A DNA stretch of 64,000 nucleotides, from NCBI GenBank assembly GCA_017478965.1, contig JAFVCV010000003.1, positions 1 through 64,000 on the forward strand. Direction: 5' to 3'. This stretch comes from Ruminococcus sp. (GTDB taxonomy: Bacteria; Bacillota; Clostridia; Oscillospirales; Ruminococcaceae). Under the pieces are notes generated by a model, which was not told the origin of the DNA, ran no database searches, and worked only from the letters and a program-made list of their open reading frames with translations. Below are positions 43,293-57,538 of the stretch, in pieces. Numbering within the stretch: position 1 is the stretch's first letter; each line of letters opens with the position of its first letter. The position numbers and the translations under genes are program-made.

Positions 43293-43345
43293 TTGACTTA
43301 CAACTGGCAGTGTGATACTATATTTTTTAGGTTAGCGGCCCCTGA
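43293..43345 (+). promoter_or_regulatory. Promoter of the iron-uptake cluster with DtxR/IdeR-like half site
   Basis: TTGACT (43293-43298), 17-bp spacer, TACTAT (43316-43321). Right after the -10 box lies TTAGGTTAGC (43327-43336), identical to one half of the DtxR/IdeR consensus; over 19 bases it matches 14. An iron-dependent repressor bound here would block the start site, fitting an iron-uptake operon. The second half is degenerate, so it needs testing. Confidence 0.6.
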
Positions 43346-43355
43346 GCGGTCCATG

Positions 43356-43382
43356 AAAAAGTTGGCTTTATGCCGACTTTTT
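43356..43382 (+). promoter_or_regulatory. Attenuator-like hairpin in the iron-cluster leader
   Basis: AAAAAGTTGGC / GCCGACTTTTT, 11 pairs (one G-T) with a 5-base loop and a T-rich 3' arm, about 30 bases after the start site and 130 bases before the first gene. It looks like an intrinsic terminator inside the leader. The remaining leader to 43512 holds several TTAG/CTAA dyads (e.g. AGTTA-N8-TAACT, 43397-43414) but no riboswitch class I recognise. Confidence 0.5.
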
Positions 43383-43512
43383 GTATTTTAGGGCATAGTT
43401 AGCTGTGGTTAACTTACTCGCCAGGTTTCCGGAAGATACAGGGAACGGCTGCACCAAAGTTAGCCTTGTCAAACTTTAAAGAGGCGAATACCTCAGCGGG
43501 AGGAATAGAGAA

Positions 43513-45132
43513 ATGTCATTTAAAAAGACCGCACTTACTGCGGTGCTGTCGCTGATGATGGCGATGCTTATACCGGTTTTCGGCATAACTGCCCACGCTG
43601 CGACGGATTACATACCCACATGGGACGAGTACAAGGTATCGGGCAACCCCATCGACACCTGGAACGATAAGGCAAACGCCATCGACAAGGTCCTGGAGGC
43701 CTCCTATCAGCTCTACTCTCAGGGCGATCAGGCCGAAGCCTACACGGCTGTGCTCAATACCTACAATTTTTACTATGAGACCTCTGGCTTCGAGCGCAAC
43801 GTCAACGGATATTCCGGCTCGGAGGTCAGCAAGGCCGAGCTGAGCTTCAAGACGGCGAGAAAGTCTGTAAAAAAAGGCGCTCCCATCGAGGAGGTGAGGG
43901 TGAATTATGAGGCCCTCAGTGAGATACTCCATATCCAGGCCAATCACCTTGACGGTCTGGGCGATACGGGTTCCTCGGGCCTGACCTTCGGGGAGGGCGC
44001 TCCCGCAGCGCAGAACACTACGGTGCAGACCGGCGAGAGCCAGACCGGAGACAGCGGCAGCACAACGCCTCTTTCCAGCGGCACCACCAGCGGCTGGGTG
44101 ACTTTTGCGTCATGCTTTGCCATTATCCTCCGTGAGGGTCTGGAGGCCATACTTGTCGTAGGGGCTATCATCGCCTATCTGGTCAAGTCCGGCAACAGGG
44201 ACAAACTCAAGCACGTTTATATCGGCTGCATTGCGGCCATCGGCGCAAGTTTCCTCTGTGCATGGCTGCTGAGCCTGCTGAAACTTGCTAATACCGCCAA
44301 CCAGGAGATAATCGAGGGCGTTACCGCACTGACTGCGGTGCTGGTACTGTTCTATGTGAGCAACTGGATGGTCTCGAAGGCAGAGGCGGATACCTGGAAC
44401 AAGTACATCGACGACCAGGTCAAGATGTCTGCCGAGACAGGCAGCGTTTTCACCCTGGCATTCACAGCTTTCCTTGCAGTGTTCCGTGAGGGCGCAGAAG
44501 TTATACTCTTCTATCAGCCTCTTCTCAGTGACGCTAAGAGCATGAGCTACGTCTGGGGCGGCTTCGGCGTGGGCTGCGTGGTGCTTGCGGTGGTGTTCCT
44601 CTGCATAAGGTTCCTGAGCGTAAAGCTGCCTATAAGGCCGTTTTTCCTTGGCACCAGCATACTGATGTTCATAATGTCCATATCCTTCCTTGGTGCGGGC
44701 ATCAAGGAGCTCATCGAGGGAGACGTCATCGACATGACCTCGCCCGACTGGCTCCAGGCTATAATACCTTTCAACGACGTTCTCAACGTTCTTGGCATCT
44801 ATCCTGTCCTTGAAACTCTGATACCGCAGCTGATACTTATTTTTGTAACTCTGATGATATTCGTCATGCAGAAGTACAAGGAGAAGAATAAGAACGAGGC
44901 TGGTATCCTTGCCATCATATTCGGCGGCCTGGGCGGCCACAAGTTCTACCTCGGAAAGTACGGACAGGGCCTTATCTGCGTTGCTTTCTGCTGGTCGGGC
45001 ATACCTGAGCTGCTGGGCGTCATTCAGGGCATACACTATCTGACGGAGACTAAGGAACAGTTTGAGAACGAGCTTCTTCCGAAAAAGAAGGAGCCAAAGA
45101 AAAAGGCCGTAAAAAAGGCCGCAAAGACATGA
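43513..45132 (+). CDS. FTR1-family iron permease with C-terminal TM2 domain
   Basis: 539 residues. Signal peptide ending AHAAT (~30), outer helical domain (~31-155), Ser/Thr/Gly linker, then a seven-helix FTR1 permease with both iron motifs: R207-E-G-L-E211 and R325-E-G-A-E329. An added TM2-type two-helix module lies at ~460-510 (GILAIIFGGLGGHKFYLGKY), and the tail is Lys-rich. FTR1 proteins import ferric iron or oxidised ferrous iron. GGGAGGA precedes the ATG. First gene of the cluster; equivalent of Campylobacter Cj1658, but the TM2 tail is not a usual part. Confidence 0.93.
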   Translation: MSFKKTALTAVLSLMMAMLIPVFGITAHAATDYIPTWDEYKVSGNPIDTWNDKANAIDKVLEASYQLYSQGDQAEAYTAVLNTYNFYYETSGFERNVNGYSGSEVSKAELSFKTARKSVKKGAPIEEVRVNYEALSEILHIQANHLDGLGDTGSSGLTFGEGAPAAQNTTVQTGESQTGDSGSTTPLSSGTTSGWVTFASCFAIILREGLEAILVVGAIIAYLVKSGNRDKLKHVYIGCIAAIGASFLCAWLLSLLKLANTANQEIIEGVTALTAVLVLFYVSNWMVSKAEADTWNKYIDDQVKMSAETGSVFTLAFTAFLAVFREGAEVILFYQPLLSDAKSMSYVWGGFGVGCVVLAVVFLCIRFLSVKLPIRPFFLGTSILMFIMSISFLGAGIKELIEGDVIDMTSPDWLQAIIPFNDVLNVLGIYPVLETLIPQLILIFVTLMIFVMQKYKEKNKNEAGILAIIFGGLGGHKFYLGKYGQGLICVAFCWSGIPELLGVIQGIHYLTETKEQFENELLPKKKEPKKKAVKKAAKT

Positions 45133-45200
45133 TATGAACCGCCTGTATACGGACGGTCTACATATAACAAGCAGTCATAATTATGAAGGAGGAATTTTTA

Positions 45201-45833
45201 ATGACTAAGAAAAAGCTTGTGGGCATAGCTCTGGCAGCTATGATGGCTATGAGCATGGCAGCCTGCGGCAGCACTGACGACAGCAAGGCTGACACTGCCA
45301 GCAAGAGCGAGGGTTCCGACGCAGTAGTCGAGGATACCCCCAACGCTGATGACGGCGCAGGATTTACCGAGTATCCTATCTTTGAGGACGAAGAGGTAGG
45401 TTTCCTGAACGTATCCGCTGTATACTTCCAGCCTGTACCTATGTCCAACGGCAACGAGAAGGTGGACGGTTTCAACATTCACCTTGAGGCTGACGTTTCC
45501 GCTCTGGAGAACGACCTGGGCTTCGGCGTAGGCGACTGGGTGCCTTACATGACAGTTGATTACAAGATCACCGGCTCTGACGGATCTGTAGCTGCTGACG
45601 GCACATTTATGGTAATGAGCGCATCTGACGGTCCGCACTACGGTGCTAACGTGGCTCTGCCCAATGCTGATACCTACAGCATCGAGTTCCAGTTCCACAA
45701 CCCCGAGGAGAACGGCTATCTGCTCCACACCGATGCAGAAACAGGCCCTGGCGGGACCTTCGACAAGTACTTTGCCGACGGCAACCTGAAGGTGACCTTT
45801 GACGGCTGGGACTACGTTCCTCAGGAGTGGTAG
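45201..45833 (+). CDS. P19/Tp34-type iron-binding lipoprotein
   Basis: 210 residues. Lipobox MAAC (Cys16) after a short signal peptide, acidic linker, then an immunoglobulin-like domain of the periplasmic iron-transport family (PF10634). Metal-site residues expected for P19 include the His in FNIHLEADV and in SDGPHYGANV, plus Glu/Met nearby. It captures iron (with copper in P19) at the cell surface and passes it to the FTR1 permease. The start at 45201 has AAGGAGGAAT upstream; an in-frame ATG at 45183 is the ribosome-site region itself. Confidence 0.88.
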   Translation: MTKKKLVGIALAAMMAMSMAACGSTDDSKADTASKSEGSDAVVEDTPNADDGAGFTEYPIFEDEEVGFLNVSAVYFQPVPMSNGNEKVDGFNIHLEADVSALENDLGFGVGDWVPYMTVDYKITGSDGSVAADGTFMVMSASDGPHYGANVALPNADTYSIEFQFHNPEENGYLLHTDAETGPGGTFDKYFADGNLKVTFDGWDYVPQEW

Positions 45834-45870
45834 ACCCGCACAGGTAAATTTCCTTATCAAATTATCGCAT

Positions 45871-45899
45871 TATGCGCTGAGAATTTAGCTCAGCGCATA
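45871..45899 (+). terminator. Hairpin after the P19 gene
   Basis: Perfect 10-bp stem TATGCGCTGA/TCAGCGCATA, 9-base loop, followed after a few bases by GTTTTT. It may be a partial terminator that sets a higher level for the first two genes, or an RNA-stabilising structure. Confidence 0.6.
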
Positions 45900-45983
45900 T
45901 TGTGCGTTTTTGAATGTTAACAAAGGCAAACTATCGCCGCTCTGTCAACATTCAAAAGCGTCGGAGCGGAAAGGAGAAAGATC

Positions 45984-47258
45984 GTGTTAAAATATTTTGT
46001 TATGACCGTGGAGGCTATGGTCCTGGCGGCGGTGACAGTCGGAACTGTCAGAGGGTTTGTTTTCCTGACTGATGAACGCAGGGGAAAGCTCGCCGGTGCC
46101 ATTGGCGCCGGAGTGGGCTTTGTGGCTGCGGCTGTGATGGCGATAATGAAAAACGCCACTACCAGGATCGACACTTCCCTATGGAACCTGAGGATATTCA
46201 CGCTCACTATGGTTCTGTCGCTGGCACTGATCGTTTTCGGCATTTTCAGAAAGAAAAAGATACCGGCTGGGGCCGTTTATATCTGCGGGGGACTTATCAC
46301 GGCGCTGATGATATTCTATGTCCTGCCTGATGTGCTGGCCTACCCGTATCTTATACTTCTCACCGAGAAATCTGTGCTCTCCACCGGGTTCCTGCTCAAA
46401 TGCGTGGGCATAGTTTTCGGAATTATACTTATCCTTGTGGCTCAGTCTGCGATCTATAACGGGACTGTACGTCTCAGCTCCTGGACCGCTTACGGCGTCT
46501 GCACTGCGGTGCTGCTCATCAACGCCGCCAGACAGTTCTGCGCAGTCCTCGGCATCATGCTCAATAAGCGTATGCTCGAAAAGCTGGATAAGGACCTCAA
46601 ACACGATATCTTCGAGCTTGTGAAGTTCTCTTCAAATAACAGCAATATGTTCGTCTATGCTGCTGTTATCGCAGCTATGACTGTGCCTGCGGTCCTGTGG
46701 GTGAAAAGTCTCAGGGCCAGGGAGCCTTACGATAACCCGGCACAGAAAAGAAAGCTGCGCAAGAAGTGGAGAGTCACCAGGACCTATGCGACCCTGATGC
46801 TGTGCTGTCTGATCTTTGGCATGGTGACGTTTACCACTCTTGATGCCGTTGCGAACCGTGAGATACCCCTTTCGCCTGTGGAGGACGCTAAGATAGACAG
46901 CGGCTATGTGGTGGTCCCCTTCGAGCAGGTGGATGACGGACATCTGCACCGTTTCGCCTATGTTACCGAAAACGATATCCAGATAAGGTTCATCGTTATC
47001 AAAAAGCCGAATTCCTCCGCTTACGGCATTGGTCTTGACGCCTGTGACGTTTGCGGCGAGACAGGCTATTTCGAGAAGGACGGTCAGGTGGTCTGCAAGC
47101 TCTGCGACGTTGTTATGAACATACAGACCATAGGCTTCAAGGGCGGCTGCAACCCCATAGTTATCCCCTATGAGATACGTGACGGACAGATCTTCGTTCC
47201 CATCGAGGGACTGCTTGAAAACGAAAAGATGTTCAGAAACAACCGTATGCGCAGCTAG
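45984..47258 (+). CDS. Membrane protein with DUF2318 (iron-sulfur-type) domain
   Basis: 424 residues, about 8 membrane helices in the first 300, then a DUF2318 domain facing outward at ~310-424 with two cysteine pairs (CDVCGETGYF, VVCKLCDVVMN) and a further GGCNP. This is the Cj1660-type component of p19 iron systems, thought to handle electrons or metal at the membrane. GGAAAGGAG precedes a TTG/ATG-type start at 45984. Confidence 0.88.
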   Translation: MLKYFVMTVEAMVLAAVTVGTVRGFVFLTDERRGKLAGAIGAGVGFVAAAVMAIMKNATTRIDTSLWNLRIFTLTMVLSLALIVFGIFRKKKIPAGAVYICGGLITALMIFYVLPDVLAYPYLILLTEKSVLSTGFLLKCVGIVFGIILILVAQSAIYNGTVRLSSWTAYGVCTAVLLINAARQFCAVLGIMLNKRMLEKLDKDLKHDIFELVKFSSNNSNMFVYAAVIAAMTVPAVLWVKSLRAREPYDNPAQKRKLRKKWRVTRTYATLMLCCLIFGMVTFTTLDAVANREIPLSPVEDAKIDSGYVVVPFEQVDDGHLHRFAYVTENDIQIRFIVIKKPNSSAYGIGLDACDVCGETGYFEKDGQVVCKLCDVVMNIQTIGFKGGCNPIVIPYEIRDGQIFVPIEGLLENEKMFRNNRMRS

Positions 47259-47270
47259 GAGGTAAGGACT

Positions 47271-48563
47271 ATGTTTTTCAGAATGATTAGAGGCACTCTG
47301 TTCAGGCAGTGGAAAAAGATGCTCATGATAGCCTTTACCATCGCCCTGGGCGCTTCCCTGGCCTCTGCGATGCTCAGCGTTATGCTGGACGTTGGCGATA
47401 AGGTGAACCAGGAGCTGAAGACCTACGGCGCCAACATAACCGTTGTGCCTAAGGAGAACTCGGTGCTCAGTGAGCTTTATGAGGTGGAGGACGGAGGAGT
47501 CTCCGGAGCCTACCTGAGGGAAGATGAGCTGGGAAAGATAAAGACTATCTTCTGGGCATTCAATATCGTCGATTTTGCGCCCTTCGTGAATGTGGACTGC
47601 ACTCTGGAGGACGGCACTGAGGTGCAGTGCGTAGGCAGCTGGTTCGACCACCATATGGACCTTCCCACCGGGGAAACTCTTGATGCGGGCGTAGTCAGCC
47701 TGAGGAGCTGGTGGGAACTGGAAGAAGGCCAGTGGCTGGACGAGCAGCTGCTCAGTGACAGCGCAGATGCGGCCATGGTCGGCAAAGACCTGGCGCAGAA
47801 GCTTGACCTTAAACCCGGGGACACCCTCCGTGTGAGCGGACCCGCCGCTGACAGGGAGCTGAGAGTGGCCGGCATTTACGACGCAGGCGGCACTGAAGAT
47901 ATGCAGATATATCTCCAGCTGGACACTGCACAGTCCCTTGCAGACCTGGAGGGCTGCGTTGACAGGATAGAGGTCAGCGCCCTTACCACTCCGGAAAACG
48001 AGCTTTCCGAAAGGGCCGCCAAGGACCCTTCGTCCCTGACCGTGGCACAGATGGAGACCTGGACCTGCACGGCCTACGCCAGCTCCATCTGCTATCAGAT
48101 ACAGCAGGTCATTACGGATTCCGTGGCCGCTCCTGTGAGACAGGTGGCTGACTCCGAGGGCGCTATACTCAGCAAAACACAGCTGCTGATGATACTCATA
48201 ACTATCCTGAGCCTTATCGGCGCCGCTCTTGGCATATGCAATCTGGTGACGGCCAGCGTTATGGAGAGGGCGCAGGAGATAGGACTTATGAAGGCTCTGG
48301 GCGCCCAGAACCTCTCCATCGCTCTGCTGGTGCTCTGTGAGATCGCCATAACTGCGGTATTCGGCGGCGTGGGCGGCTTTTTCGCAGGTTTCGGCTTTGC
48401 CCAGCTCATAGGCCATACGGTGTTCGGCTCGGCTATCGAGATGCGGCCCATGGTGGTGCCTATAGTTGCTGTGCTGGTGGTGATAGTGACCCTCATCGGC
48501 TCTATCCCGGCCATAAAGATGCTCCTTGGGCTTAGGCCTACGGAAGTTCTCCACGGCAGATAA
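47271..48563 (+). CDS. ABC permease, MacB/FtsX type (first of pair)
   Basis: 430 residues: N-terminal helix (MLMIAFTIALGASLASAML), a ~250-residue outer domain, and three C-terminal helices ending in LLGLRPTEVLHGR. The helix ITILSLIGAALGICNLVTASVMERAQEIGLMKALGA carries the FtsX coupling signature. Corresponds to Cj1661. Thirteen bases after the DUF2318 gene, with AGGAGG between. Confidence 0.92.
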   Translation: MFFRMIRGTLFRQWKKMLMIAFTIALGASLASAMLSVMLDVGDKVNQELKTYGANITVVPKENSVLSELYEVEDGGVSGAYLREDELGKIKTIFWAFNIVDFAPFVNVDCTLEDGTEVQCVGSWFDHHMDLPTGETLDAGVVSLRSWWELEEGQWLDEQLLSDSADAAMVGKDLAQKLDLKPGDTLRVSGPAADRELRVAGIYDAGGTEDMQIYLQLDTAQSLADLEGCVDRIEVSALTTPENELSERAAKDPSSLTVAQMETWTCTAYASSICYQIQQVITDSVAAPVRQVADSEGAILSKTQLLMILITILSLIGAALGICNLVTASVMERAQEIGLMKALGAQNLSIALLVLCEIAITAVFGGVGGFFAGFGFAQLIGHTVFGSAIEMRPMVVPIVAVLVVIVTLIGSIPAIKMLLGLRPTEVLHGR

Positions 48564-48581
48564 AAAGCGGAGGCAGGTAAA

Positions 48582-49742
48582 ATGAAGAAAAGAAAAATGT
48601 TCATAAGAATGATAACGGCCTCGCTGATGAGAAGGCGTTCACGAATGATAGTGGCGCTTTTGTCCATCGCCATCGGTGCGACTATACTGTCGGGGCTGGT
48701 GTCTATCTATTATGACGTGCCGAGACAGATGGGCGCACAGTTCCGTAACTACGGTGCAAATATGATATTCACCGGTGAGGACGGGAGCCTGGGTCTTGAC
48801 GAGGTCATTGCCGGGGAGAAGAAGATAGACCCCGCAGAGCTGGTGGGCGCTGCGCCCTACCGCTACGAGAATGTCAGGATAAACGATATCCCTGTGGTGG
48901 CTGCCGGAACAGACCCGCAGGGAGTTCAGAAGACAAGCCCCTACTGGAGGGTCGAAGGCAGCTGGTTCTCCGGCGGCGGCGAACTGCTGGTGGGAGCATC
49001 GGTGGCCGAGTCCTTCAGGATAAAGTCCGGTGACGTCATCGACGTTTCCTTTACCCCGGCAGCGCAGGAGGATGAGTCCGGTGAAGAGGAGTTTGTCATG
49101 GACAACTTCAAGACCTTCACCGTCATGGGTATACTTCAGACCGGCGGCTCGGAGGAGAATTACATTTATATGTCCTTAGATGACCTGAGGGAGCTGACCG
49201 GCACTGAGGGGAGCATTGATGTGGCAGAGCTGAGCGTTTCGGCAGGTCAGGAGGAGCTGTCGGCCTATATCGACGCTATCAACAGCGGCGTAAAGGGCGT
49301 CCACGCCAGCCTGGTCAAGAGAGTGACAGCCTCGGAGGCCACGGTCCTGACGAAATTACAGGCTCTTGTGCTGCTGGTGACTATCGTGGTCCTGGCGCTG
49401 ACGATGATATGCGTTGCCACTACCATGACGGCCGTGGTAGCGGAGCGCCGCAAGGAGATAGGTCTGAGAAAAGCCATCGGCGCATCGGATAAGAGCATTA
49501 TCCAGGAGTTCATGGGTGAGAGTATGCTCCTGGGGCTGCTGGGAGGAGCGCTGGGGTCGGTGCTGGGTTATGTGTTCGCACAGCAGGTCAGCATCAATGT
49601 GTTCAGCAGCTCCATCTCGTTCAGGCCGGTGCTGGTCCCTGTTACTGTCATAGCGTCGATAGCAGTCACGGGTATCTCCAGCCTTATGCCTATAAGGAGC
49701 GCTACTGACGTTGACCCGGCCATGGTACTGAAAGGCGAATGA
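48582..49742 (+). CDS. ABC permease, MacB/FtsX type (second of pair)
   Basis: 386 residues with the same MacB topology as the gene before it: helix near 15-40, outer domain, three C-terminal helices, coupling segment ERRKEIGLRKAIGASDKS. Corresponds to Cj1662. Probably forms a heterodimer with the first permease. Confidence 0.92.
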   Translation: MKKRKMFIRMITASLMRRRSRMIVALLSIAIGATILSGLVSIYYDVPRQMGAQFRNYGANMIFTGEDGSLGLDEVIAGEKKIDPAELVGAAPYRYENVRINDIPVVAAGTDPQGVQKTSPYWRVEGSWFSGGGELLVGASVAESFRIKSGDVIDVSFTPAAQEDESGEEEFVMDNFKTFTVMGILQTGGSEENYIYMSLDDLRELTGTEGSIDVAELSVSAGQEELSAYIDAINSGVKGVHASLVKRVTASEATVLTKLQALVLLVTIVVLALTMICVATTMTAVVAERRKEIGLRKAIGASDKSIIQEFMGESMLLGLLGGALGSVLGYVFAQQVSINVFSSSISFRPVLVPVTVIASIAVTGISSLMPIRSATDVDPAMVLKGE

Positions 49743-49785
49743 GCCTTGGGCTGACTGCAAAACTCTGAAAAAAGGAGAATGGACA

Positions 49786-50475
49786 ATGAGCTTACTGGAA
49801 CTAAAAAACGTTTATAAGATATACGGCGACCTTCACGCCCTGGACGATGTGAGCCTGAAAGTGGAGAAGGGCGAGTGGGTGTCCATAATGGGACCGTCCG
49901 GCTCGGGAAAAAGCACCATGATGAACATTATCGGCTGCATGGATAAGCCCAGCAAGGGGGAGGTCCTCCTTGACGGGGTCGATATCTCAAAGGAGTCAAA
50001 AAAGAACCTGACCAATATCCGCCGGGACAAGATAGGGCTTATCTTCCAGCAGTTTCACCTGGTCAATTATCTGACTGCGGTGGAGAACGTGATGCTGGCA
50101 CAGTACTACCACAGCATACCCGACGAGAAGGAGGCCCTGGAGGCTCTGGAGAGAGTGGGCCTGGGGGACAGGGCAAAGCACCTTCCCAGCCAGCTGTCCG
50201 GCGGCGAGCAGCAGAGGGTCTGTGTTGCCAGGGCGCTGATAAACTACCCTGAGGTGATCCTTGCAGACGAGCCGACGGGCAATCTGGACGAGGCCAATGA
50301 GGAGATAGTTGTGGAACTTTTCCACAAGCTCCACAACGAGGGCACCACCCTTATCGTCGTCACCCACGACCCTGAGGTGGCTGAAGTGGCCCAGAGGACT
50401 CTGGTCCTGAGGAGCGGAAAACTCAGCAAGGAGATAGTGAACGAGAATTTCACCGGCAAGATACATTTTGACTGA
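49786..50475 (+). CDS. ABC ATPase for the MacB-type permease pair
   Basis: 229 residues with Walker A GPSGSGKST, signature LSGGEQQRVCVARAL, Walker B ILADEPTGNLD and VTHDPE. LolD/MacB subfamily. Corresponds to Cj1663. With the permease pair it likely transmits energy to outer proteins and not classical import. AAAGGAG upstream. Confidence 0.95.
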   Translation: MSLLELKNVYKIYGDLHALDDVSLKVEKGEWVSIMGPSGSGKSTMMNIIGCMDKPSKGEVLLDGVDISKESKKNLTNIRRDKIGLIFQQFHLVNYLTAVENVMLAQYYHSIPDEKEALEALERVGLGDRAKHLPSQLSGGEQQRVCVARALINYPEVILADEPTGNLDEANEEIVVELFHKLHNEGTTLIVVTHDPEVAEVAQRTLVLRSGKLSKEIVNENFTGKIHFD

Positions 50476-50490: not shown

Positions 50491-50925
50491 ATGAAAAAGG
50501 CGACAGCAGTTTTAGCGCTGGTCTTCGTGACGGCACTTTCTGCCTGCGGCAGCACCACCTATAAGGACGGCACCTACAAGGCCAAGAGCGCCGAGTATGT
50601 CAGCGACGACGGCACTGAGGACGGCAACGGCTACGGCGAGGTGGAGATCACCATTACCGACGGCAAGATTAGCGATGTTAAATTCCTGACCTATGAGCTG
50701 GACGGTACTCTGAAAGACGAGGAATACGGCAAGGAGAACGGCGAGATAAAGAACAAGGATTTCTACACCAAGGCCCAGCGGGCAAGAGCCGCCTGCGAGA
50801 ACTATGCGGAGCAGCTCAGGGCGAAGGGGAACATCGACGACGTTGACGGAGTCAGCGGAGCCACGGTGAACTATAACGAATTCAAGGAGGCTGTTGCCGC
50901 TGCCCTGAAGCAGGCGGAGGAATGA
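50491..50925 (+). CDS. FMN-binding-domain lipoprotein (flavinylation substrate)
   Basis: 144 residues. Lipobox LSAC (Cys19) and an FMN-binding domain. The ApbE flavinylation motif D-x-x-S/T-G-A-T is visible as DGVSGAT, with Thr125 the expected site of covalent FMN. An extracellular flavin carrier in the middle of an iron-uptake cluster points to electron delivery, for example ferric reduction before uptake. No ApbE gene lies in the window. GGAGGG precedes the ATG. Confidence 0.88.
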   Translation: MKKATAVLALVFVTALSACGSTTYKDGTYKAKSAEYVSDDGTEDGNGYGEVEITITDGKISDVKFLTYELDGTLKDEEYGKENGEIKNKDFYTKAQRARAACENYAEQLRAKGNIDDVDGVSGATVNYNEFKEAVAAALKQAEE

Positions 50926-51443
50926 GGTCAGTCCTGCGGCACGGGGCCGTGACGGTCCTTGGGCTTTTTATCCTGATCGGACTGCCTTTTTTCAGCTCGG
51001 ACTATTTTAAACGTTTAAGAAACGGCGAGGACGCAGTTTCAGGAGCAACGGTGGCCCTTGACAAGCCGTCGGGGGAGTATGTGGTCTTCATAAACCGGGA
51101 CCTTCACACTGACAGCAAAAATCTCAGTATCTGGGAGGGATTTTTCGCAAGAGGTGAGGACGAAGGCATTTATAACGTTTTCGAGGACCTGAGCTGCACT
51201 GTTGCCGACAGCGACCCATCGGGACTGGAGATGGCCAGGAGCTTTCAGTCCCTACTGCCCGAGAACCAGATGAAGGTCCGCACTGAGAACATCGTGCTTA
51301 TGCTGTCGAAGGCAGAAAACGGCAGGTTCGACCTTATCATCATGTCCAGGGAGCTTGCAGAGGTCTATAAGGCGGACCGCATCGCAGAGCAGACAGGGGC
51401 ATTGATGCTGACAGTTTCGCAGGAGCAGGAGGAGCAGAAATGA
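50922..51443 (+). CDS. Small anchored protein with an ApbE-like SGAT motif
   Basis: 173 residues: one membrane helix at ~8-25, then at once a sequence D37-A-V-S40-G-A-T43 that fits the flavinylation motif, followed by an outer alpha/beta domain of ~120 residues I do not recognise (GEYVVFINRDLHTD, FDLIIMSRELAEVY). The start overlaps the FMN-protein stop (ATGA). If flavinylated it would be a second flavin carrier close to the membrane surface. The motif may instead be a remnant. Confidence 0.6.
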   Translation: MRSVLRHGAVTVLGLFILIGLPFFSSDYFKRLRNGEDAVSGATVALDKPSGEYVVFINRDLHTDSKNLSIWEGFFARGEDEGIYNVFEDLSCTVADSDPSGLEMARSFQSLLPENQMKVRTENIVLMLSKAENGRFDLIIMSRELAEVYKADRIAEQTGALMLTVSQEQEEQK

Positions 51444-51988
51444 GAAGAGCCAACGCTTTTATAAGTATGCTTATCATGGCACTTTTCCTGTTCCATGGGA
51501 TAATGGGGGGCTTTCAGCTGGCCGGGGTCATTCCGGGCGGATCGGGGCTGATGAAGGTCATGGCCTGGATAATGACCGTGCTCATCGCCGTCCATGGGAT
51601 CATAGGCATAAAGCTGACCGCTGATACATTCAGGACGATAAAGAAGTCCGGCGCAGGATACTATAAGGAAAACAGGCTGTTCTGGCTCAGGCGTGCAAGC
51701 GGCTTTGCCATTATGGTCTTTATCCTTTTTCACATACTTATTTTTCTGGGAAAAAACGGCGATGCTTACAGGCTCAGTCTGTTTGCGGTCCCGCAGCTCA
51801 TCTCGCAGATACTTCTGGTCATTTCAGTTGCCCTGCACGTCATCACTAACGTCAGGCCCATGCTGCTGAGTTTCGGTACAAAAAGCTGGAAAGACCTGGG
51901 ACTTGACCTCTGCATGATACTGGCGGGGGCAATGCTTTTCACAGGTGTGTGCTTTATCGTCTATTATATCAGGTGGAAGGTCTTCTGA
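51440..51988 (+). CDS. Cytochrome b-like membrane subunit (fumarate-reductase type)
   Basis: 182 residues, five membrane helices. Helix-borne histidines fit heme b ligation: FLFHGIMGG, IAVHGIIGI, FILFHILIF and VALHVITN. Same order as FrdC/SdhC before the flavoprotein gene, start overlapping the preceding stop (ATGA). Proposed role: passing electrons between menaquinol and the flavoprotein, or outward to the flavinylated proteins. Confidence 0.8.
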   Translation: MRRANAFISMLIMALFLFHGIMGGFQLAGVIPGGSGLMKVMAWIMTVLIAVHGIIGIKLTADTFRTIKKSGAGYYKENRLFWLRRASGFAIMVFILFHILIFLGKNGDAYRLSLFAVPQLISQILLVISVALHVITNVRPMLLSFGTKSWKDLGLDLCMILAGAMLFTGVCFIVYYIRWKVF

Positions 51989-52001
51989 CGGGGTGATCTT
52001 A

Positions 52002-53567
52002 ATGGAAGAGATAAATATTCTTGGAGCCGGATTAGCCGGACTTTCGGCGGCGATCACTCTGGCTCAGGGCGGTCAGAAGTGCAGACTTATCTCAGCCCAA
52101 AGCTCGGAACGGGCCCAGAGCGTCATGGCCGAGGGCGGGATAAATGCGGCCCTTGATCTGATGGGCGAGGGTGACAGTCCTGAGCTGCATTTTGAGGACA
52201 CCATGAGGGGCGGGGCCTATCTGGCCGACGAGGAGGCAGTGAGAAGACTGACCTTTGGCGCACCGGATACTGTCAGGTGGTTAGCCGGCCTGGGGGTCCC
52301 TTTCAATATGAAGGACGGCAGGCTCGTCCAGCGCAGCTTCGGCGGGCAAAAGAAAAAGCGCACCGCCTACGCCAGGAGCAGCACCGGAAAAATGATAATG
52401 TCAGCGCTTATCGACGAGTGCAGAAAATATGAGTGCTCCGGGCTGGTAAAGCGCTTTGACCACCACGGATTTCTTGGGCTGAACGTCCGTGAGGACAGCT
52501 GTCTTGGACTGAGAGCCAGAGATATCTACAGCGGCGAAGTCATGGACTTCAGCGGACGGGTCATAATGTGCTGCGGAGGTCCGGCCGGGCTTTTCCCGGG
52601 TTTGACCACAGGGACGGCTGCCAACAGCGGTTATGCGGCCGCAAGGCTTTTTGAACAGGGCGTGGTATTCGGCAATCTGGAGATGCTCCAGTATCACCCT
52701 ACCACAGTTGCTATCCCCGACAAGCGCTGTCTTGTCACCGAGGCCGCCAGGGGCGAGGGCGGCAGACTGTTCATAATGCGAAACGGCAAAAGATGGTATT
52801 TTATGGAAGAAAAATATCCTGAGCTAAAAAACCTCATGCCAAGGGACGTGGTGGCAAGGGAGATGTATTTCGTCCGTAAAGAGCCGGACAGTAGCGGAGA
52901 GGTGATGCTCGATATGACCGGTCTTGACGGACTGGTCTGGCGCAGCAGACTTCCGGACCTGAGGGCGGAGCTTATCCACTACCTTGGCATAGACCCGGCA
53001 AAGGAACCGGTGCCGGTCAGGGAGGGTATACATTATTTCATGGGCGGGATATACACTGATATCGCTCATAGGACCAGCCTGAGGGGACTTTATGCCGCAG
53101 GGGAATGTACCTGTCAGTACCACGGGGCAAACCGCCTCGGGGGAAATTCCATGCTGGGGGCAGTGTTCGGCGGAAGGACGGCGGCTGAGGATATCCTTTG
53201 CGACGGCGATCAGGCAGCTGACTTTAACGGCGAAAGGGACAGCGGGTCTGTGACGGAGAACGAGCCTTCGGACGCAGTGAAGCTTGAACTGGGCGAAATT
53301 TTGTACAGCGGCCTAGGCATAGTCCGCAGCGCCGAAGGCTTATGTAACGCACTTGACAGGCTTGACGAGCTGGAGGAGCGCCGTGGGACCTTCCCCAGGA
53401 CAAGACTGGCAAGGGCCATGCTGCTGTCTGCCATGGAGAGGAAGGAGAGCCGGGGCGCCCATTACCGTGAGGATCACCCAGAAAGGGACGAGAAACTCGG
53501 AAGACCCACTCTTAGCCGGTATAAAAACGGCGTCATAGAGGTAAGCATAGGGGAGGGCTTTGAATGA
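52002..53567 (+). CDS. FAD-binding flavoprotein of the fumarate reductase / L-aspartate oxidase family
   Basis: 521 residues. FAD Rossmann motif NILGAGLAGLSAA at the N-terminus. Family motifs are HPTTVAIP, EAARGEGGRLF, the proton-shuttle region PRDVVAREM, HYFMGGIYTD and HGANRLGGNSMLG. The histidine that carries covalent FAD in FrdA/SdhA (RSHTVAAQGG) is replaced: RAQSVMAEGG, so FAD is bound non-covalently. At 521 residues it is shorter than FrdA (~600). Start at 52002 after GGGGTGAT. Substrate could be fumarate or another acceptor. Confidence 0.85.
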   Translation: MEEINILGAGLAGLSAAITLAQGGQKCRLISAQSSERAQSVMAEGGINAALDLMGEGDSPELHFEDTMRGGAYLADEEAVRRLTFGAPDTVRWLAGLGVPFNMKDGRLVQRSFGGQKKKRTAYARSSTGKMIMSALIDECRKYECSGLVKRFDHHGFLGLNVREDSCLGLRARDIYSGEVMDFSGRVIMCCGGPAGLFPGLTTGTAANSGYAAARLFEQGVVFGNLEMLQYHPTTVAIPDKRCLVTEAARGEGGRLFIMRNGKRWYFMEEKYPELKNLMPRDVVAREMYFVRKEPDSSGEVMLDMTGLDGLVWRSRLPDLRAELIHYLGIDPAKEPVPVREGIHYFMGGIYTDIAHRTSLRGLYAAGECTCQYHGANRLGGNSMLGAVFGGRTAAEDILCDGDQAADFNGERDSGSVTENEPSDAVKLELGEILYSGLGIVRSAEGLCNALDRLDELEERRGTFPRTRLARAMLLSAMERKESRGAHYREDHPERDEKLGRPTLSRYKNGVIEVSIGEGFE

Positions 53568-54295
53568 AGACTGAGCTTAGGATACTAAGGCGCAGGAGCC
53601 GTGAGGAGGAGCCATTCTGGCAGAGCTTTATCTATGAGGCTGAGGACGCAAATGCGGCGGTGTCAACAGCGCTGAATGCCCTGAATTCCCGGGAGGAGCT
53701 GACTGACACTGAGGGGCGCAGAGCAGACCCGATCAGGTGGGAATGCAGCTGTCTGCAAAAAAAATGCGGGGCCTGCGCTATGGTAATAAACGGCAGGCCG
53801 GCCCTTGCCTGCGACAGCAAGCTGAGCGGTCTGGGCCCGGTGGTCACTCTGGGACCGCTGCGCAAATTCCCGGTCATAGCGGACCTTATAACGGACCGCA
53901 GCGCAATGAGGGAGGTCCTCAGGGAGATGAAGATATTTCTGAGGGCACAGACAGAAGTCAGCGAGTCCATGACTGACATTGCATATGAAGCCTCGGGCTG
54001 CCTGCAATGCGGCTGCTGTCTGGAGATCTGTCCGAATTTTTGTACCGGAGGAAAGTTCGGAGGCATGGCGGCAGCACTGCCGGCCGGCCGGCTCATAGAG
54101 GAAATGGACGGGGAGGGCAGAGAGGAGCTTTTGAAGGAGTACCGCAAAAGGGTCTATGAGGGCTGCGGTAAGTCACTTGCCTGCCGGGACATCTGTCCGG
54201 CGGGGCTTGACGTGGAAAAGCTCATGGTCAATTCAAATGCCGCCGCCGTATGGAAGGCCCTGGATTTTCTGAGGAAAAAGCGCCATGAAGTCTGA
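53564..54295 (+). CDS. Iron-sulfur subunit, FrdB/SdhB-like
   Basis: 243 residues, the size of FrdB. N-terminal [2Fe-2S] ferredoxin part with CSCLQKKCGACAM and a later Cys in RPALAC; C-terminal part with CLQCGCCLEICP and CGKSLACRDICP for the [4Fe-4S] and second cubane or trinuclear cluster. Start overlaps the flavoprotein stop. Links the flavoprotein with the cytochrome b. Confidence 0.88.
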   Translation: MKTELRILRRRSREEEPFWQSFIYEAEDANAAVSTALNALNSREELTDTEGRRADPIRWECSCLQKKCGACAMVINGRPALACDSKLSGLGPVVTLGPLRKFPVIADLITDRSAMREVLREMKIFLRAQTEVSESMTDIAYEASGCLQCGCCLEICPNFCTGGKFGGMAAALPAGRLIEEMDGEGREELLKEYRKRVYEGCGKSLACRDICPAGLDVEKLMVNSNAAAVWKALDFLRKKRHEV

Positions 54296-55211
54296 AAGGG
54301 CCGTGATCGTTCTGTTCAGTGCGGCCGTCCTGCTCACATCGGCGGCGGGACTTTATGCTGCGGCAGTCAGGGAGGGGCCTGCTCCACGCTATCAGGTCCG
54401 GCAGGATCTGAGTATACATTTCAATAACGCAGATGCGGTGATCGACCGGGTCAGAGAATGTCTCAAAGCACGGCAGGAGCTGATAAGGATAACCTACACC
54501 TCCCACAGCAGCAACCTTGAGGACCTTGACGAGCTGGTCAGAGAGCTGATGGAGTTTGCCTGCTGCGAGACCGGGGCTGCCGATGAAGGAGACTATCTGC
54601 GCTGTCAGATAGGCGGTTATGATGCCGGCTTCACTCAGGAGGAGAGGGACGGACTTTTCACCTATGAGTTAAACATCAGGCCCATCTATTTCACTGACGC
54701 TGAGCAGGAGGAAGAGGTCAGCAGGGCGGTGGAAAAGGTCATAGCCAGCCTTGGCCTGCCTGAAGGGGCCGGGGAGGAAGAGAAGATAAGAGCGGTCTAC
54801 GACTGCGTTTGTTCCAATGTGTCCTACGACTGGGTACACCGCCGAAGCGAAAACTACCGACTGAGGTCGGCGGCATACGGTGCGCTCATCTACGGCAGGG
54901 CCACCTGTCTGGGATATGCGGTGACGGTGTACAGGCTCCTGCGGGAGCTTGGAGTAGGCTGCCGGGTAGTTACGGGGGACGCCGTTGACGCTGAGACCGG
55001 GGAGCGTGAATATCACGCCTGGGTAATTATCAGGCTTGATGGGAAGTGGTATAACGCCGACCCTACCTGGGACAGCCGCAGCGGGACCCACAGCTTTTTT
55101 CTGAAAAGTGATGAGGACTTCGGGGACCATATCCGAAAAACAGGCTCTCCGGCCGGCTACGGTGCAGAAGACTATCCGATGGCCACGGAAAGTTACGGGA
55201 AAGGAAAGTAA
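54285..55211 (+). CDS. Transglutaminase-like (papain-fold) secreted protein
   Basis: 308 residues. N-terminal signal anchor (VIVLFSAAVLLTSAAGLYAAAV), a ~130-residue spacer domain, then a transglutaminase core: Cys in GRATCLGYA, His in EYHAWVII and Asp in YNADPTWD. It ends with FFLKSDEDF as common in bacterial TGase-like proteases. Overlaps the iron-sulfur gene by 11 bases. Function in an electron-transfer operon is unclear; cross-linking or processing of the surface proteins is possible. Confidence 0.85.
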   Translation: MKSERAVIVLFSAAVLLTSAAGLYAAAVREGPAPRYQVRQDLSIHFNNADAVIDRVRECLKARQELIRITYTSHSSNLEDLDELVRELMEFACCETGAADEGDYLRCQIGGYDAGFTQEERDGLFTYELNIRPIYFTDAEQEEEVSRAVEKVIASLGLPEGAGEEEKIRAVYDCVCSNVSYDWVHRRSENYRLRSAAYGALIYGRATCLGYAVTVYRLLRELGVGCRVVTGDAVDAETGEREYHAWVIIRLDGKWYNADPTWDSRSGTHSFFLKSDEDFGDHIRKTGSPAGYGAEDYPMATESYGKGK

Positions 55212-55214
55212 AAA

Positions 55215-55634
55215 ATGAATGATAAGAAAAATGTGAAAGAAACTGTTCTTGCCGCTGCTATCCTGATATGCAGCATATGCCTGTGCGCTGGGGCAAAGCT
55301 CGTATTCCACGCCTGCGGTCCTAAGGAGGACGGCAGTTATATGGCCTGCCACTGGGCAGAGCAGGCAATTTTCGGCATAGGCTGCGCTATGACTGCGATA
55401 TCGGTGTTTCTGATCGCAGTAAGGAACAGGGGCATGAAAAGGGGTCTGGCCCTTTCGCTGCTTCCCTGCGGGGCGGTCTGTGCGCTGATACCCAATATAC
55501 TTATAAAGCTCTGCATGATGACTGAGATGCGCTGCCATACCGTCATGCGTCCGGCGGCCGTTATCTTCGGCCTTATCACCGCAGTGCTGGGGACGGTTTA
55601 TGCGGTGATCTGCAAGGAGGAGAAGAAGGACTGA
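55215..55634 (+). CDS. DUF4418 membrane protein
   Basis: 139 residues, four membrane helices. Conserved cysteines occur as FHACGPKEDGSYMACHW and MRCHTVMRP, the DUF4418 pattern. Function unknown. In this cluster it precedes an FtsX/ATPase pair, and the Cys/His residues near the outer face suggest metal or redox work. Confidence 0.75.
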   Translation: MNDKKNVKETVLAAAILICSICLCAGAKLVFHACGPKEDGSYMACHWAEQAIFGIGCAMTAISVFLIAVRNRGMKRGLALSLLPCGAVCALIPNILIKLCMMTEMRCHTVMRPAAVIFGLITAVLGTVYAVICKEEKKD

Positions 55635-56830
55635 TGAAAAGTCTGGCGGTAAAAAATCTGAAGGGCAGGTCTGTCAGAACGGCTGTCCTAATGACCCTGG
55701 CGGCGCTGCTGTCCTTTACGGTCCTGGGGGGAACGCTCGTAGTCCGCAGCCTGGATAAGGGCTTAGTATCCCTTAAAGCCAGACTTGGAGCAGATGTTAT
55801 GGTGGTCCCCAAGGAGGCCACTATGAAAAAGAAATTCGAGGACATGATCCTTCAGGGGACCACCGGGTATTTCTATATGGATATGAGCAGGGCCGAAGAG
55901 GTCATGGAACGTGAGGGCGTAGGCCAGGTCTCGCCGCAGTTCTTCTTAGCGTCCACAAGCTCCAGTTGCTGCTCCATACCTGTGCAGCTGATAGGCTTTG
56001 AACCTGAAACAGACTTCACCGTGTCACCATGGATAAAGCGCACATATGGCGGCCAGCTGGGCTTTTGCGACATCGTTGCCGGCAGCGACCTGAACGTCTT
56101 CGTAGGCGATAAGCTGAGCTTTTACGGAGTGGAGTGTACAGTGGCGGCCAAGCTTGAAAAGACAGGCACCAGCTACGACACCACTGTCTTTGCCAGCGGC
56201 GAAACCGTCAAGGAGCTTATCCGGTCCTCCCTGGAAAAGGGAATGAACGATTTTGCGGACATCGACCCGGAGCGGTCCGTGTCCTGCCTGATGATAAATG
56301 CCGCCGACGGCACCTCCCCGGAGGAGCTGGTGAATGATATCAATATCCATGTCAAGAAAGTCAAGGCCTATAAGACCGGCGACATGATAAAGGGCATCTC
56401 AGACAGCCTGGGAGGAGTCTCCAGAATGATAGGGCTGCTCATAGCGGCAGTCTGGGTCTTAGGGATAGTGATACTGTCCCTGGCATTTACCATGAGCGTC
56501 AACGAGCGCAGGAAGGAATTCGCCGTCCTGAGGGTCATCGGGGCCTCACGTGGGAGCCTTGCGGGACTGGTCCTGAAAGAGGCGCTGCTGACCTGCACTC
56601 TGGGGAGCCTCGCAGGGGCCGCCCTGGGTCTGCTGGTGCTGCTGCCGTTCAATGGCTTTATAGAGGAGACTCTGGCTCTGCCGTTTTTGCTGCCGGGGGT
56701 GGGGAGCATAGCTGGCTTTACCGCAGGGGCAGTTATACTGTCGGTGCTTTCCGGAGCTGCCGCCGCTGCCATAAGCGCCCTCAGGGTCAGCCGTATCGAC
56801 ACAGGACTGATACTCAGGGGGGATAATTGA
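55634..56830 (+). CDS. ABC permease, MacB/FtsX type (third)
   Basis: 398 residues, same topology as the two earlier permeases: helix 16-35, outer domain (ADVMVVPKEA, FYMDMSRAEEV), three C-terminal helices with ERRKEFAVLRVIGASRGS. TGATG overlap with DUF4418. Most like the first permease (both have a V-VPKE strand), so the second module probably arose by duplication. Confidence 0.92.
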   Translation: MKSLAVKNLKGRSVRTAVLMTLAALLSFTVLGGTLVVRSLDKGLVSLKARLGADVMVVPKEATMKKKFEDMILQGTTGYFYMDMSRAEEVMEREGVGQVSPQFFLASTSSSCCSIPVQLIGFEPETDFTVSPWIKRTYGGQLGFCDIVAGSDLNVFVGDKLSFYGVECTVAAKLEKTGTSYDTTVFASGETVKELIRSSLEKGMNDFADIDPERSVSCLMINAADGTSPEELVNDINIHVKKVKAYKTGDMIKGISDSLGGVSRMIGLLIAAVWVLGIVILSLAFTMSVNERRKEFAVLRVIGASRGSLAGLVLKEALLTCTLGSLAGAALGLLVLLPFNGFIEETLALPFLLPGVGSIAGFTAGAVILSVLSGAAAAAISALRVSRIDTGLILRGDN

Positions 56831-57507
56831 TGGAACTGAGAGCGGAAAAAATATACCGGGATTTTATCAGAGAGAGCCGCAGCACCAACCGTTTCACCGC
56901 TGTCAAGGAGACTTCTATGCTCCTTGCGCCCGGAAAGCTGACAGTGCTGATGGGCCGCTCCGGCAGCGGCAAGACCACACTGCTTAATATGCTGTCCGGA
57001 CTTCTTTGTCCCACCGGAGGCAGTATCACCGCCGACGGACAGGACCTTTATGCCATGAGCGACAAGGAGCTGTCAAGGTTCAGAAACCTCCATATGGGCG
57101 TTATTCCTCAGGGACAGACCGCTGTACACAGCCTTGACGTCAGGGAGAATATACTTCTTCCATTTACATTTTACGGCGATGTGCCGGACGAAAAGCAGGC
57201 TCAGGAGCTTATGGAAAGGCTGGATATCGCCCACCTCGCAGCCGCTATGCCCTCGGAGCTGTCAGGCGGGGAGCTGAGACGAATGGCCATAGCCCGAGCT
57301 CTTGTGCGAAGGCCGGAGCTGATTTTTGCAGACGAGCCTACAGGGGACTTAGACGATGAGAACACCGCAGAGGTGTTCAGGGTCCTGAAAGAATACGCCG
57401 CTGAGGGTGGTTCAGTGCTGACTGTCACCCACGAGAACGACGCTAAGTCATATGCCGACGTACTGCTGACGATGAGCGCAGGAACAGTCAGCCAGGAAAT
57501 TGTATAA
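56827..57507 (+). CDS. ABC ATPase of the second FtsX-type module
   Basis: 226 residues with Walker A GRSGSGKTT, signature LSGGELRRMAIARAL, Walker B IFADEPTGDLD and VTHEND. The signature has E-L-R-R in place of Q-Q-Q-R. ATGA overlap with its permease. Last gene of the cluster. Confidence 0.93.
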   Translation: MMELRAEKIYRDFIRESRSTNRFTAVKETSMLLAPGKLTVLMGRSGSGKTTLLNMLSGLLCPTGGSITADGQDLYAMSDKELSRFRNLHMGVIPQGQTAVHSLDVRENILLPFTFYGDVPDEKQAQELMERLDIAHLAAAMPSELSGGELRRMAIARALVRRPELIFADEPTGDLDDENTAEVFRVLKEYAAEGGSVLTVTHENDAKSYADVLLTMSAGTVSQEIV

Positions 57508-57512
57508 GCAAG

Positions 57513-57538
57513 AGCGGACCGTGCGGTCCGCTTTTTTT
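57513..57538 (+). terminator. Terminator of the iron/electron-transfer cluster
   Basis: Stem AGCGGACC/GGTCCGCT, 4-base loop, T7, five bases after the last stop codon. Confidence 0.92.

Follow-up and report, generated by a model that had tools for sequence, protein, structure and literature searches.

The P19/Fet iron-uptake system, the FetMP-FetABCD(EF)/P19 cluster, also has a gram-positive form, and the presence of an FMN-binding gene in gram-positive clusters has already been published (PMC6083913, PMC8238504). The sections of PMC8238504 used here call the system mechanistically uncharacterised and discuss its clusters as having no component for electron transfer across the membrane; both reducing power and oxidase activity are mentioned in PMC10783030. 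The window, a stretch of 64,000 nucleotides from a Ruminococcus sp. contig, carried a cluster whose first seven genes belong to the same families in the same order, with the FMN-binding lipoprotein as the seventh (PMC6083913, PMC10783030, PMC8238504). The window adds to this system SGAT2, a cytochrome b, an FAD subunit, an Fe–S subunit, a transglutaminase-like protein, DUF4418, and a second ABC pair. The first four of these form a module of SGAT2, cytochrome-b-like, FrdA-like, and FrdB-like subunits.

An ORF check and profile searches of the window gave 15 co-directional genes at 43513-57507 on the forward strand (Table 1). The number and common direction of the genes agreed with the earlier note, and Pfam matches confirmed the families it had named (FTR1, P19, FtrD-like, permeases, ATPases, FMN_bind, Frd-like, Transglut_core, and DUF4418). 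Its statement that most genes overlap by 4-17 bases was not right: overlaps of 1-11 bases were found at 6 of the 14 junctions, and the remaining 8 were gaps of 3-150 bases with the start codons chosen here. Its start, 43293, falls on a promoter-like hexamer and no gene begins there. One tRNA was found in the window, with no riboswitch or other RNA at Rfam gathering scores.

Table 1. Features of the cluster in the window, with positions, strand, and the matches or sequence signs behind each assignment.
Feature	Position	Strand	Evidence
Upstream region	43293..43512	+	promoter-like TTGACT-17-TACTAT at 43293-43321; DtxR-like half-sites
FTR1 (FetM-like) iron permease, C-terminal TM2 domain	43513..45132	+	PF03239 E 1.8e-22; PF05154 E 8.2e-13
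P19 (FetP-like) iron-binding protein, lipoprotein-like start	45183..45833	+	PF10634 E 5.7e-42
FetA-like membrane protein, FtrD-like domain	45984..47258	+	PF10080 E 7.3e-29
FetB-like MacB/FtsX-type permease	47271..48563	+	PF12704, PF02687
FetC-like MacB/FtsX-type permease	48582..49742	+	PF12704, PF02687
FetD-like ABC ATPase (MacB/FtsE/LolD type)	49786..50475	+	PF00005 E 6.5e-36
FMN-binding protein, C-terminal DGVSGAT, predicted ApbE substrate	50491..50925	+	PF04205 E 2.5e-10
SGAT2: N-terminal membrane anchor, DAVSGAT right behind, outer domain	50922..51443	+	candidate flavinylated subunit beside cytochrome
Cytochrome-b-like membrane subunit, about five helices, His19/52/98/133	51440..51988	+	Sdh_cyt-like, hydropathy peaks
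FrdA/SdhA-like FAD subunit	52002..53567	+	fumarate-site residues kept; Gln39 replaces FAD-linking His
FrdB/SdhB-like three-cluster Fe–S subunit	53564..54295	+	profile matches
Transglutaminase-like protein, accessory	54285..55211	+	PF01841 E 2.4e-15
DUF4418 protein	55215..55634	+	PF14387 E 2e-24
Second FtsX-type permease	55634..56830	+	PF02687 E 5.1e-16
Second ABC ATPase (LolD-like)	56827..57507	+	PF00005 E 8.9e-33

The FTR1 permease, with two or three RE..E motifs in 55/55 relatives, adjoins P19 as in P19/Fet clusters, and P19 showed a lipobox-like start in 49 of 56 relatives. The FtrD-like protein is followed by two permeases and an ATPase, again the order of the P19/Fet cluster; the best NCBIfam matches of this ATPase were MacB, FtsE, and LolD, all below their cut-offs. 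The families and order of genes 1-7 thus support the earlier reading of an iron cluster, and a predicted P19/Fet importer in the window. Upstream of FTR1, the best 19-mer matched 13 of the 19 positions of the DtxR/IdeR consensus. A score of at least 13 was reached in 38 of 54 regions upstream of FTR1, the window included, against about 4.4% of shuffled regions, and the importer is probably under DtxR-type iron control. A Fur box was rejected, as its scores were like those of shuffles. Among the downstream accessory genes, the transglutaminase-like gene was not seen in two related clusters (G150 and G168), the literature found for DUF4418 gives no function in the parts drawn on, and the second ATPase matched LolD best in NCBIfam, below the cut-off.

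The gene order was compared in the best 80 of 176 relatives, and the linkage counts therefore hold for the closer relatives. Of the 55 cytochrome loci whose upstream flank reached 9 kb or more, 52 had P19 and FTR1 there, so that among close relatives the trio was not found mostly without the iron genes, an outcome the earlier note had named as adverse to its reading. The nine genes from FTR1 to the cytochrome kept one order in 49/55 loci, and SGAT2 stood directly before the cytochrome gene in 77/80. Where the flanks of the cytochrome gene reached at least 9 kb on the upstream and 6.5 kb on the downstream side, all 15 genes had the identical order in 29 of 44 loci, and the arrangement is therefore not due to chance. 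The 25 loci with less than 9 kb upstream held a Fet-type gene in 16 cases, one of them (L106) counted through generic ATPase matches only, and none in 9. The module also lay within a Fet cluster in 12 of 13 other SGAT2-bearing relatives; in two of the 12 the contig stops within the cluster, short of P19. The survey of relatives and that of genome contigs share organisms, and the HMMs used were trained on the former. The Frd-like module is tied to the P19/Fet cluster through this conserved order.

Modules apart from the iron genes were found in L102, L106, and L112, and in L077, L084, L096, and L109 the FAD and Fe–S genes are located elsewhere. Two genomes, G842 and G121, have the module and no P19, and in the FAD tree they are the earliest to branch off, though their branches are long. 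In that tree 62 of 81 module rows were iron-linked (L106 counted as not linked), and 8 of the 12 rows labelled detached are on contigs ending within 3.2 kb upstream of the cytochrome gene. Where module genes are unlinked or relocated, 14 upstream regions were scored for the box and none exceeded its own shuffles (lowest P 0.22), and FTR1 in L161 had no DtxR-like box. No remnant of the cytochrome, FAD, or Fe–S genes was found in the gap of the G063 main cluster. Near the P19 clusters of 16 other P19-bearing genomes of the phylum there was no module homologue, their other downstream ORFs being judged by eye.

The FMN-binding protein carried the strict motif D..[ST]GA[ST] in 70/70 relatives and a lipobox-like start in 57 of 69. 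SGAT2 showed a hydrophobic N-terminus in all 74 copies and a relaxed flavin motif in 70 (0.9% in shuffles); the strict motif was present in 10, the window's copy among them, and in L112 the motif is lost. The window's SGAT2 gave no Pfam match, and 32 of 76 aligned family members matched DUF6921 at E up to 1. In G842 an anchored protein with a strict DVLSGAT precedes the cytochrome, FAD, and Fe–S genes; it matches DUF6921 over the cut-off and shares 20% identity with SGAT2 of the window. A DANSSAT-bearing lipoprotein takes that place in G121. The ApbE family was found in 14/14 carrier genomes tested, its gene lying outside the 15-gene cluster, and the NQR2/RnfD/RnfE family in 13/14, so ApbE may serve Rnf. 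With the strict motif of the FMN-binding protein and ApbE in every genome, flavin involvement is likely. Of the two flavinylated proteins claimed earlier, the FMN-binding protein, a predicted ApbE substrate, has the strict motif in every copy; SGAT2, with the strict motif in 10 of 74, is a candidate for covalent flavin.

The cytochrome-b-like subunit of the window matched Sdh_cyt at E 0.002 (18.6 bits, below the Pfam cut-off of 25.8). In its family 43 of 75 members matched at E up to 0.1, the best with 23.3 bits, also below the cut-off, and solved structures gave one weak match (6lum_D, E 0.08). Four His were invariant in 75/75 copies, which supports the heme-b reading of the earlier note. The invariant or nearly invariant columns include Asp156 and no Glu. 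Ferrochelatase was found in 0/14 carrier genomes and 8/14 controls; any heme would thus have to be taken up or come from a different synthetic route, unless the subunit contains none.

In the FAD subunit, the fumarate-site His, Glu, Arg, His, and Arg were kept in 73/73 sequences, and the catalytic Thr position was occupied by Thr in 47 of them and by Ser in the other 26. The FAD-linking His was replaced by Gln in all 73, and the histidyl-FAD bond that serves as a criterion of complex II is not expected here. NadB identity was rejected: the column of Glu121, the NadB residue that handles the aspartate amino group, is Phe in 73/73; it is Glu both in NadB of E. coli and in the NadB-like protein of the window's own genome, the sole other match to the FAD subunit there. 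The Fe–S subunit had its three cysteine motifs in 66/66 relatives.

The earlier note took menaquinol as the electron donor, and this was not supported. UbiA over the cut-off was found in 0/14 carrier genomes (weak matches below it in 3 of them) and 14/14 controls, and MenB in 0/16 carrier genomes (weak matches in 4 of them) and 7/14 controls. The gene-content test covers UbiA and MenB, and 11 of the 14 genomes in the UbiA test have a completeness of at least 90% with contamination of no more than 5%. A menaquinol-linked fumarate reductase, or a reductase passing menaquinol electrons to surface flavins as the earlier note had it, would fit the four His of the membrane subunit and the best NCBIfam matches of the FAD and Fe–S subunits, which are SDH models (PRK08641 and PRK08640, below their cut-offs). 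Set against the lack of UbiA and MenB matches over the cut-off in mostly near-complete genomes, such an enzyme is very improbable, and the route from menaquinol to the surface would leave the cytoplasmic FAD and Fe–S subunits without a job.

From the genes present and their linkage, the residues of the active site, the loss of the FAD-linking His, the four invariant His, the Fe–S motifs, and the lack of a quinone-gene match over the cut-off, we infer that a P19/Fet importer is likely joined to a quinone-free, four-subunit, complex-II-like transmembrane redox module, with covalent flavin as its outer partner and fumarate as its inner partner. The outer flavin would sit on the FMN-binding protein and probably also on SGAT2, and fumarate would bind at the FAD subunit. 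Given such a complex, inward electron flow is slightly favoured, because the fumarate site is kept, the FAD-linking His is lost, and homologues with non-covalent FAD are reported to reduce fumarate without oxidising succinate (PMC9557727). Fe2+ would be oxidised at P19/FetA/FTR1, and its electron would pass to surface FMN, through two b hemes and three Fe–S clusters to FAD, and reduce fumarate to succinate in the cytoplasm. For permeases of the FTR1 type, a use of Fe2+ oxidation has been predicted (PMC11966278). Fumarate would stand in for O2 as the sink of this oxidase-dependent permease in an anaerobe. The module and inward flow together are our best explanation, tentatively held at a probability of roughly 0.4. 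A more speculative and rather doubtful proposal is that Ruminococcus-type anaerobes have recruited a quinone-free complex II, with SGAT2 as a membrane-anchored covalent flavoprotein for its fourth subunit, to act as a ferroxidase driven by fumarate.

The inward model is supported by the P19/FTR1 linkage, the SGAT2–cytochrome adjacency, the DtxR-like boxes, and ApbE in all carriers tested. Counting against it are the ferrochelatase result, the few strict SGAT2 motifs and the motif loss in L112, the modules apart from iron genes without boxes, and the FAD and Fe–S genes relocated in four loci. Covalent FMN tends to be rather too reducing an acceptor for electrons from Fe2+, and inward flow opposes the membrane potential with no Glu among the conserved cytochrome columns, though Asp156 is. 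The membrane potential would favour the same anatomy run outward, in which electrons from succinate or another reductant in the cytoplasm would pass through FAD, Fe–S clusters, and hemes to surface flavins that reduce Fe3+ for P19/FTR1. Many carriers are rumen MAGs by title and rumen iron is likely mostly ferrous, which argues against the outward route, as does the lack of another donor in the cluster. The invariant fumarate site would be needless if another donor fed in, and the Gln in place of the FAD-linking His argues against succinate oxidation (PMC9557727). Outward reduction of ferric iron, claimed in the earlier note, is doubtful for these features of the FAD subunit, and we consider it possible but unlikely. 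Published proposals in which ferric iron is supplied with reducing power (PMC6083913, PMC8238504, PMC10783030) nevertheless speak for the outward route and against inward flow; they include a reductive role for the FMN-binding protein of such clusters (PMC6083913, PMC8238504) and a modelled relay of reducing power to FetMP (PMC10783030).

A quinone-free fermentative fumarate reductase that takes its electrons from flavin proteins such as Rnf, keeps redox in balance, and has nothing but the operon in common with iron uptake would explain the modules without nearby iron genes or iron boxes, the early if long FAD-tree branches of the two genomes without P19, the NQR2/RnfD/RnfE family in nearly all genomes, and the NadB-like protein as the only other FAD-subunit match in the window's own genome. 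It accounts poorly for P19 and FTR1 upstream in nearly all the long-flank loci among the best 80 relatives and for the DtxR-like boxes upstream of FTR1, as iron control of a fermentation enzyme would be odd, and we regard it as less probable than either direction of an iron-linked electron flow.

In the literature searched we found no description of this arrangement. The window gives a candidate transmembrane electron-transfer part for P19/Fet in gut and rumen anaerobes, and because fumarate defines a substrate site, the question of the electron route becomes testable. If the inward model is true, a complex II would have covalent flavin instead of quinone as its coupling partner, and the oxygen-free running of an oxidase-dependent permease would be explained.

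Complex II of type B (B. subtilis SdhCAB, Wolinella QFR) shares the FAD and three-cluster Fe–S subunits and a single membrane subunit of about five helices; in Wolinella QFR each of helices one to four of this subunit bears a single His, as in the window. The window differs in the missing FAD-linking His, the lack of a quinone-gene match over the cut-off in the tested carriers, and an extra anchored subunit with an ApbE motif. P19 resembles FtrA. The ferroxidase-permeases FtrABCD and Fet3p/Ftr1p (PMC11966278) share the FTR1-family permease and the FtrD-like protein, whereas the 15 genes include no cupredoxin or multicopper oxidase, and the proposed sink is fumarate instead of O2. ApbE-flavinylated systems (Rnf, Nqr, gram-positive EET, and PepSY-, MsrQ-, and DUF4405-linked systems; PMC8238504, PMC11334425) share an FMN_bind protein and a membrane cytochrome; the window's complex-II-like membrane part with cytoplasmic FAD and Fe–S subunits is not among the systems named in the sections of these two papers used here. 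Yeast Osm1, which re-oxidises the Ero1 flavin without O2 (PMC6242907), is likewise described as a flavin-fed fumarate reductase with non-covalent FAD that substitutes for O2, but it is soluble and eukaryotic and serves thiol rather than iron chemistry.

The cluster consists of 15 ORFs downstream of a promoter-like site, and Pfam/NCBIfam assignment of their families confirmed the gene list of the earlier note. The extensive overlaps described there were wrong: 6 of the 14 junctions overlap, by 1–11 bases, and gaps reach 150 bases. Genes 1–6 (FTR1, P19, FtrD-like, two MacB/FtsX permeases, and ATPase), together with the FMN-binding protein, are the gram-positive P19/Fet cluster. The replacement of the seventh-gene thioredoxin by an FMN-binding protein in Firmicutes and three other phyla is described in a section of Liu et al. 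2018 (PMC6083913), and disruption of fetA, B, C or D is stated to impair Campylobacter growth in a part of Richardson-Sanchez et al. 2023 (PMC10783030).

Positions of the cluster, its neighbours, and module genes standing apart from iron genes
Feature	Source	Position	Strand	Remark
B12-binding radical SAM and CDP-alcohol phosphatidyltransferase-like proteins	window	41116-43154		directly upstream of cluster; possibly a lipid-related pair
Promoter-like site	window	43293		upstream of cluster
15-gene cluster	window	43513-57507	+	
213-residue protein	window	57624-58265		116 bases past last cluster gene; no Pfam or NCBIfam match
GH11, carbohydrate-binding, and polysaccharide deacetylase domains in a single protein	window	58491-60527		downstream of cluster
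Second, diverged cytochrome with FAD and Fe-S genes	L156	9963-10499		
Second, diverged cytochrome with FAD and Fe-S genes	L157	10181-10744		
Second, diverged cytochrome with FAD and Fe-S genes	L158	6903-7439		
Anchored protein before cytochrome gene	G842 / L129	9399-9896	-	strict DVLSGAT; DUF6921 (PF21914) over cut-off

The FMN-binding gene is followed by a four-gene module: SGAT2 (a membrane anchor, then DAVSGAT) and the cytochrome-b-like, FrdA-like (FAD), and FrdB-like (Fe-S) subunits. SGAT2 was found in 14 of 199 genomes (own and relatives). Twelve of the 13 others held the four genes within the Fet cluster, the contigs of loci L018 and L026 ending inside it, before P19. The thirteenth, G063, retained SGAT2 alone in the cluster and carried a second SGAT2 with the other three genes on a separate contig. 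When the cytochrome alignment was used to scan GTDB genomes, it brought up 176 relatives, of which the best 80 were used. Most of these are MAGs under a Ruminococcus title; R. albus 8, other Oscillospiraceae, Lachnospiraceae, Eubacterium, Clostridia, and one Acholeplasmatales bin also occur among them. Among these best 80 loci, SGAT2 was present in 79 (the sole miss, L110, begins at the cytochrome gene) and immediately preceded the cytochrome gene in 77, while FMN_bind was present in 70 and P19 in 56. Where 9 kb or more of upstream sequence was available, 52 of 55 loci showed both P19 and FTR1 (misses: L094, L102, and L112), and the order from FTR1 to the cytochrome gene was kept in 49 of 55. 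The FAD and Fe-S genes were both present in 66 of the 70 loci that extend 2.6 kb or more downstream, and the identical 15-gene order in 29 of the 44 with both flanks.

All four genomes whose cluster lacked the FAD and Fe-S genes (L077, L084, L096, and L109) had a close FAD and Fe-S pair elsewhere, three beside a second, diverged cytochrome (L156, L157, and L158) and one without an adjoining cytochrome. P19 clusters in the genomes of these three kept SGAT2 and their own cytochrome and lacked FAD/Fe-S. No SGAT-motif ORF occurred within 1.6 kb upstream of the second cytochromes, and no iron box was found at these gene sets. P19 stood elsewhere in the genome in six of six cases (L080, L094, L102, L106, L111, and G063). 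On the P19 contig of the L094 genome (L162), the first gene is FrdB-like and lies upstream of FTR1, so this module may adjoin P19 after all.

In an even sample of the order, 7 of 394 genomes gave a cytochrome match. Four matches lay inside a P19 cluster (own, G047, G150, and G168, the last two without TGase); the others were G842, G121, and one weak partial match with no module homologues around it. P19 occurred in 17 of 398 genomes of an even phylum sample, and no module homologues were found near P19 in the 16 other P19-bearing genomes. Cytochrome matches in this sample numbered three: that of the own genome and two weak ones from genomes without P19. G842 and G121, of the same order, carry a diverged module and no P19. 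The anchored protein of G842 shared 20% identity with the SGAT2 of the window, and in G121 a lipoprotein with DANSSAT stands before the cytochrome gene. DUF6921, which may be a flavoprotein family, was matched by 32 of 76 aligned SGAT2 members at E up to 1; the window's SGAT2 had no Pfam match of its own. Given the sample distribution and the unlinked modules of G842 and G121, the module is an add-on, confined to some lineages, to an iron system that is more widespread, and it can exist apart from that system. A FAD tree built by a quick method separated 81 module FADs from E. coli FrdA, SdhA, and NadB and from the own NadB-like protein. G121, then G842, diverged first (support 89 and 88), a placement that is unsure because their branches are long. 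The relocated FADs fell inside the iron-linked group.

GCTAACC, which we take to be a half-site of the DtxR/IdeR box, was the most enriched 7-mer in the 54 regions upstream of FTR1 (23 regions vs. 1.4 expected). With a DtxR/IdeR consensus, 38 of these 54 regions scored at least 13 of 19, compared with about 4.4% of dinucleotide shuffles; the region in the window scored 13. The Fur consensus gave no signal upstream of FTR1. Such DtxR-like boxes would tie the linked module to iron control. None of 14 regions upstream of unlinked modules, relocated FAD/Fe-S genes, and the G842 and G121 modules beat shuffles (lowest P 0.22), which suggests that unlinked modules are outside such control. In genomes with unlinked modules, the FTR1 box itself was clear in L160, marginal in L163, reduced to half-sites in L022, and absent in L161.

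His19, His52, His98, and His133 of the cytochrome were invariant (75/75), and in the window's protein one falls in each of hydropathy peaks 1–4. Type-B complex II has one His in each of its first four membrane helices, a pattern that the cytochrome shares. The Fe-S subunit showed three of three cluster motifs in 66/66. Catalytic and binding residues of the FAD subunit were invariant in 73/73, one site varying between Thr (47) and Ser (26). At the position of the NadB Glu the subunit has Phe, like FrdA/SdhA, and Gln replaces the FAD-linking His in all 73. Covalent attachment is described as lifting the potential of FAD by some 100 mV and as needed for succinate oxidation (PMC10238741, in part), and homologues with non-covalent FAD as performing fumarate reduction only (a passage of PMC9557727). 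The strict flavin motif D..[ST]GA[ST] was present in 70/70 FMN_bind proteins. SGAT2 showed a relaxed motif in 70/74 (0.9% by shuffling) and the strict one in 10/74. Gly to Ser was its commonest departure; the substitution data in an excerpt of PMC12052999 concern Gly to Ala, which cuts flavinylation to about 50%, with Asp to Ala minor and loss of the acceptor Thr abolishing it. ApbE was encoded in 14/14 module genomes, but outside the cluster; a further group of ApbE clients, the NQR2/RnfD/RnfE family, was present in 13/14.

UbiA-family proteins over cut-off were found in 0/14 module genomes (weak matches in 3; controls 14/14), and MenB in 0/16 (weak matches in 4; controls 7/14). The ferrochelatase family likewise gave a match in 0/14 module genomes, such as G047 and G150 (controls 8/14); a heme reading therefore requires scavenged heme or another pathway. 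No other result weighs as heavily against a working heme wire. Module genomes thus combine four invariant cytochrome His with no ferrochelatase match.

The predicted anatomy fits a wire linking flavin at the surface with a fumarate site in the cytoplasm; electrons could run along it in two directions. We favour the inward one, in which electrons from the surface flavin would reach the FAD subunit and fumarate would be the sink in place of O2, because the FAD subunit appears built for fumarate reduction, no oxygen-using oxidase family was matched among the 15 proteins in Pfam, and transport by FTR1-family permeases is predicted to be coupled to Fe2+ oxidation (PMC11966278, in the portion consulted). 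Yeast Osm1/Ero1 offers a published parallel, since fumarate there substitutes for O2 as the flavin's electron sink (a section of PMC6242907); the likeness to the module is proposed here. Against inward flow stand the FMN potential, the membrane potential, and the published preference for reduction. Outward flow, with electrons passing from the cytoplasm to a surface flavin that reduces Fe3+, remains the alternative; it requires a cytoplasmic donor, and none is evident in the sequence. The existence of unlinked modules, and of the diverged ones without P19 in G842 and G121, keeps alive a third reading, that the cytochrome, FAD, and Fe-S subunits are a plain fermentative fumarate reductase.

No account of a complex-II-like module within a P19 cluster turned up in our literature search, and the supplementary tables of PMC8238504 may list such clusters uncommented. 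What appears to be new is a known iron system with a putatively quinone-free, complex-II-like partner: genes 1–7 are shared with the P19/Fet cluster, and this partner is the addition here.
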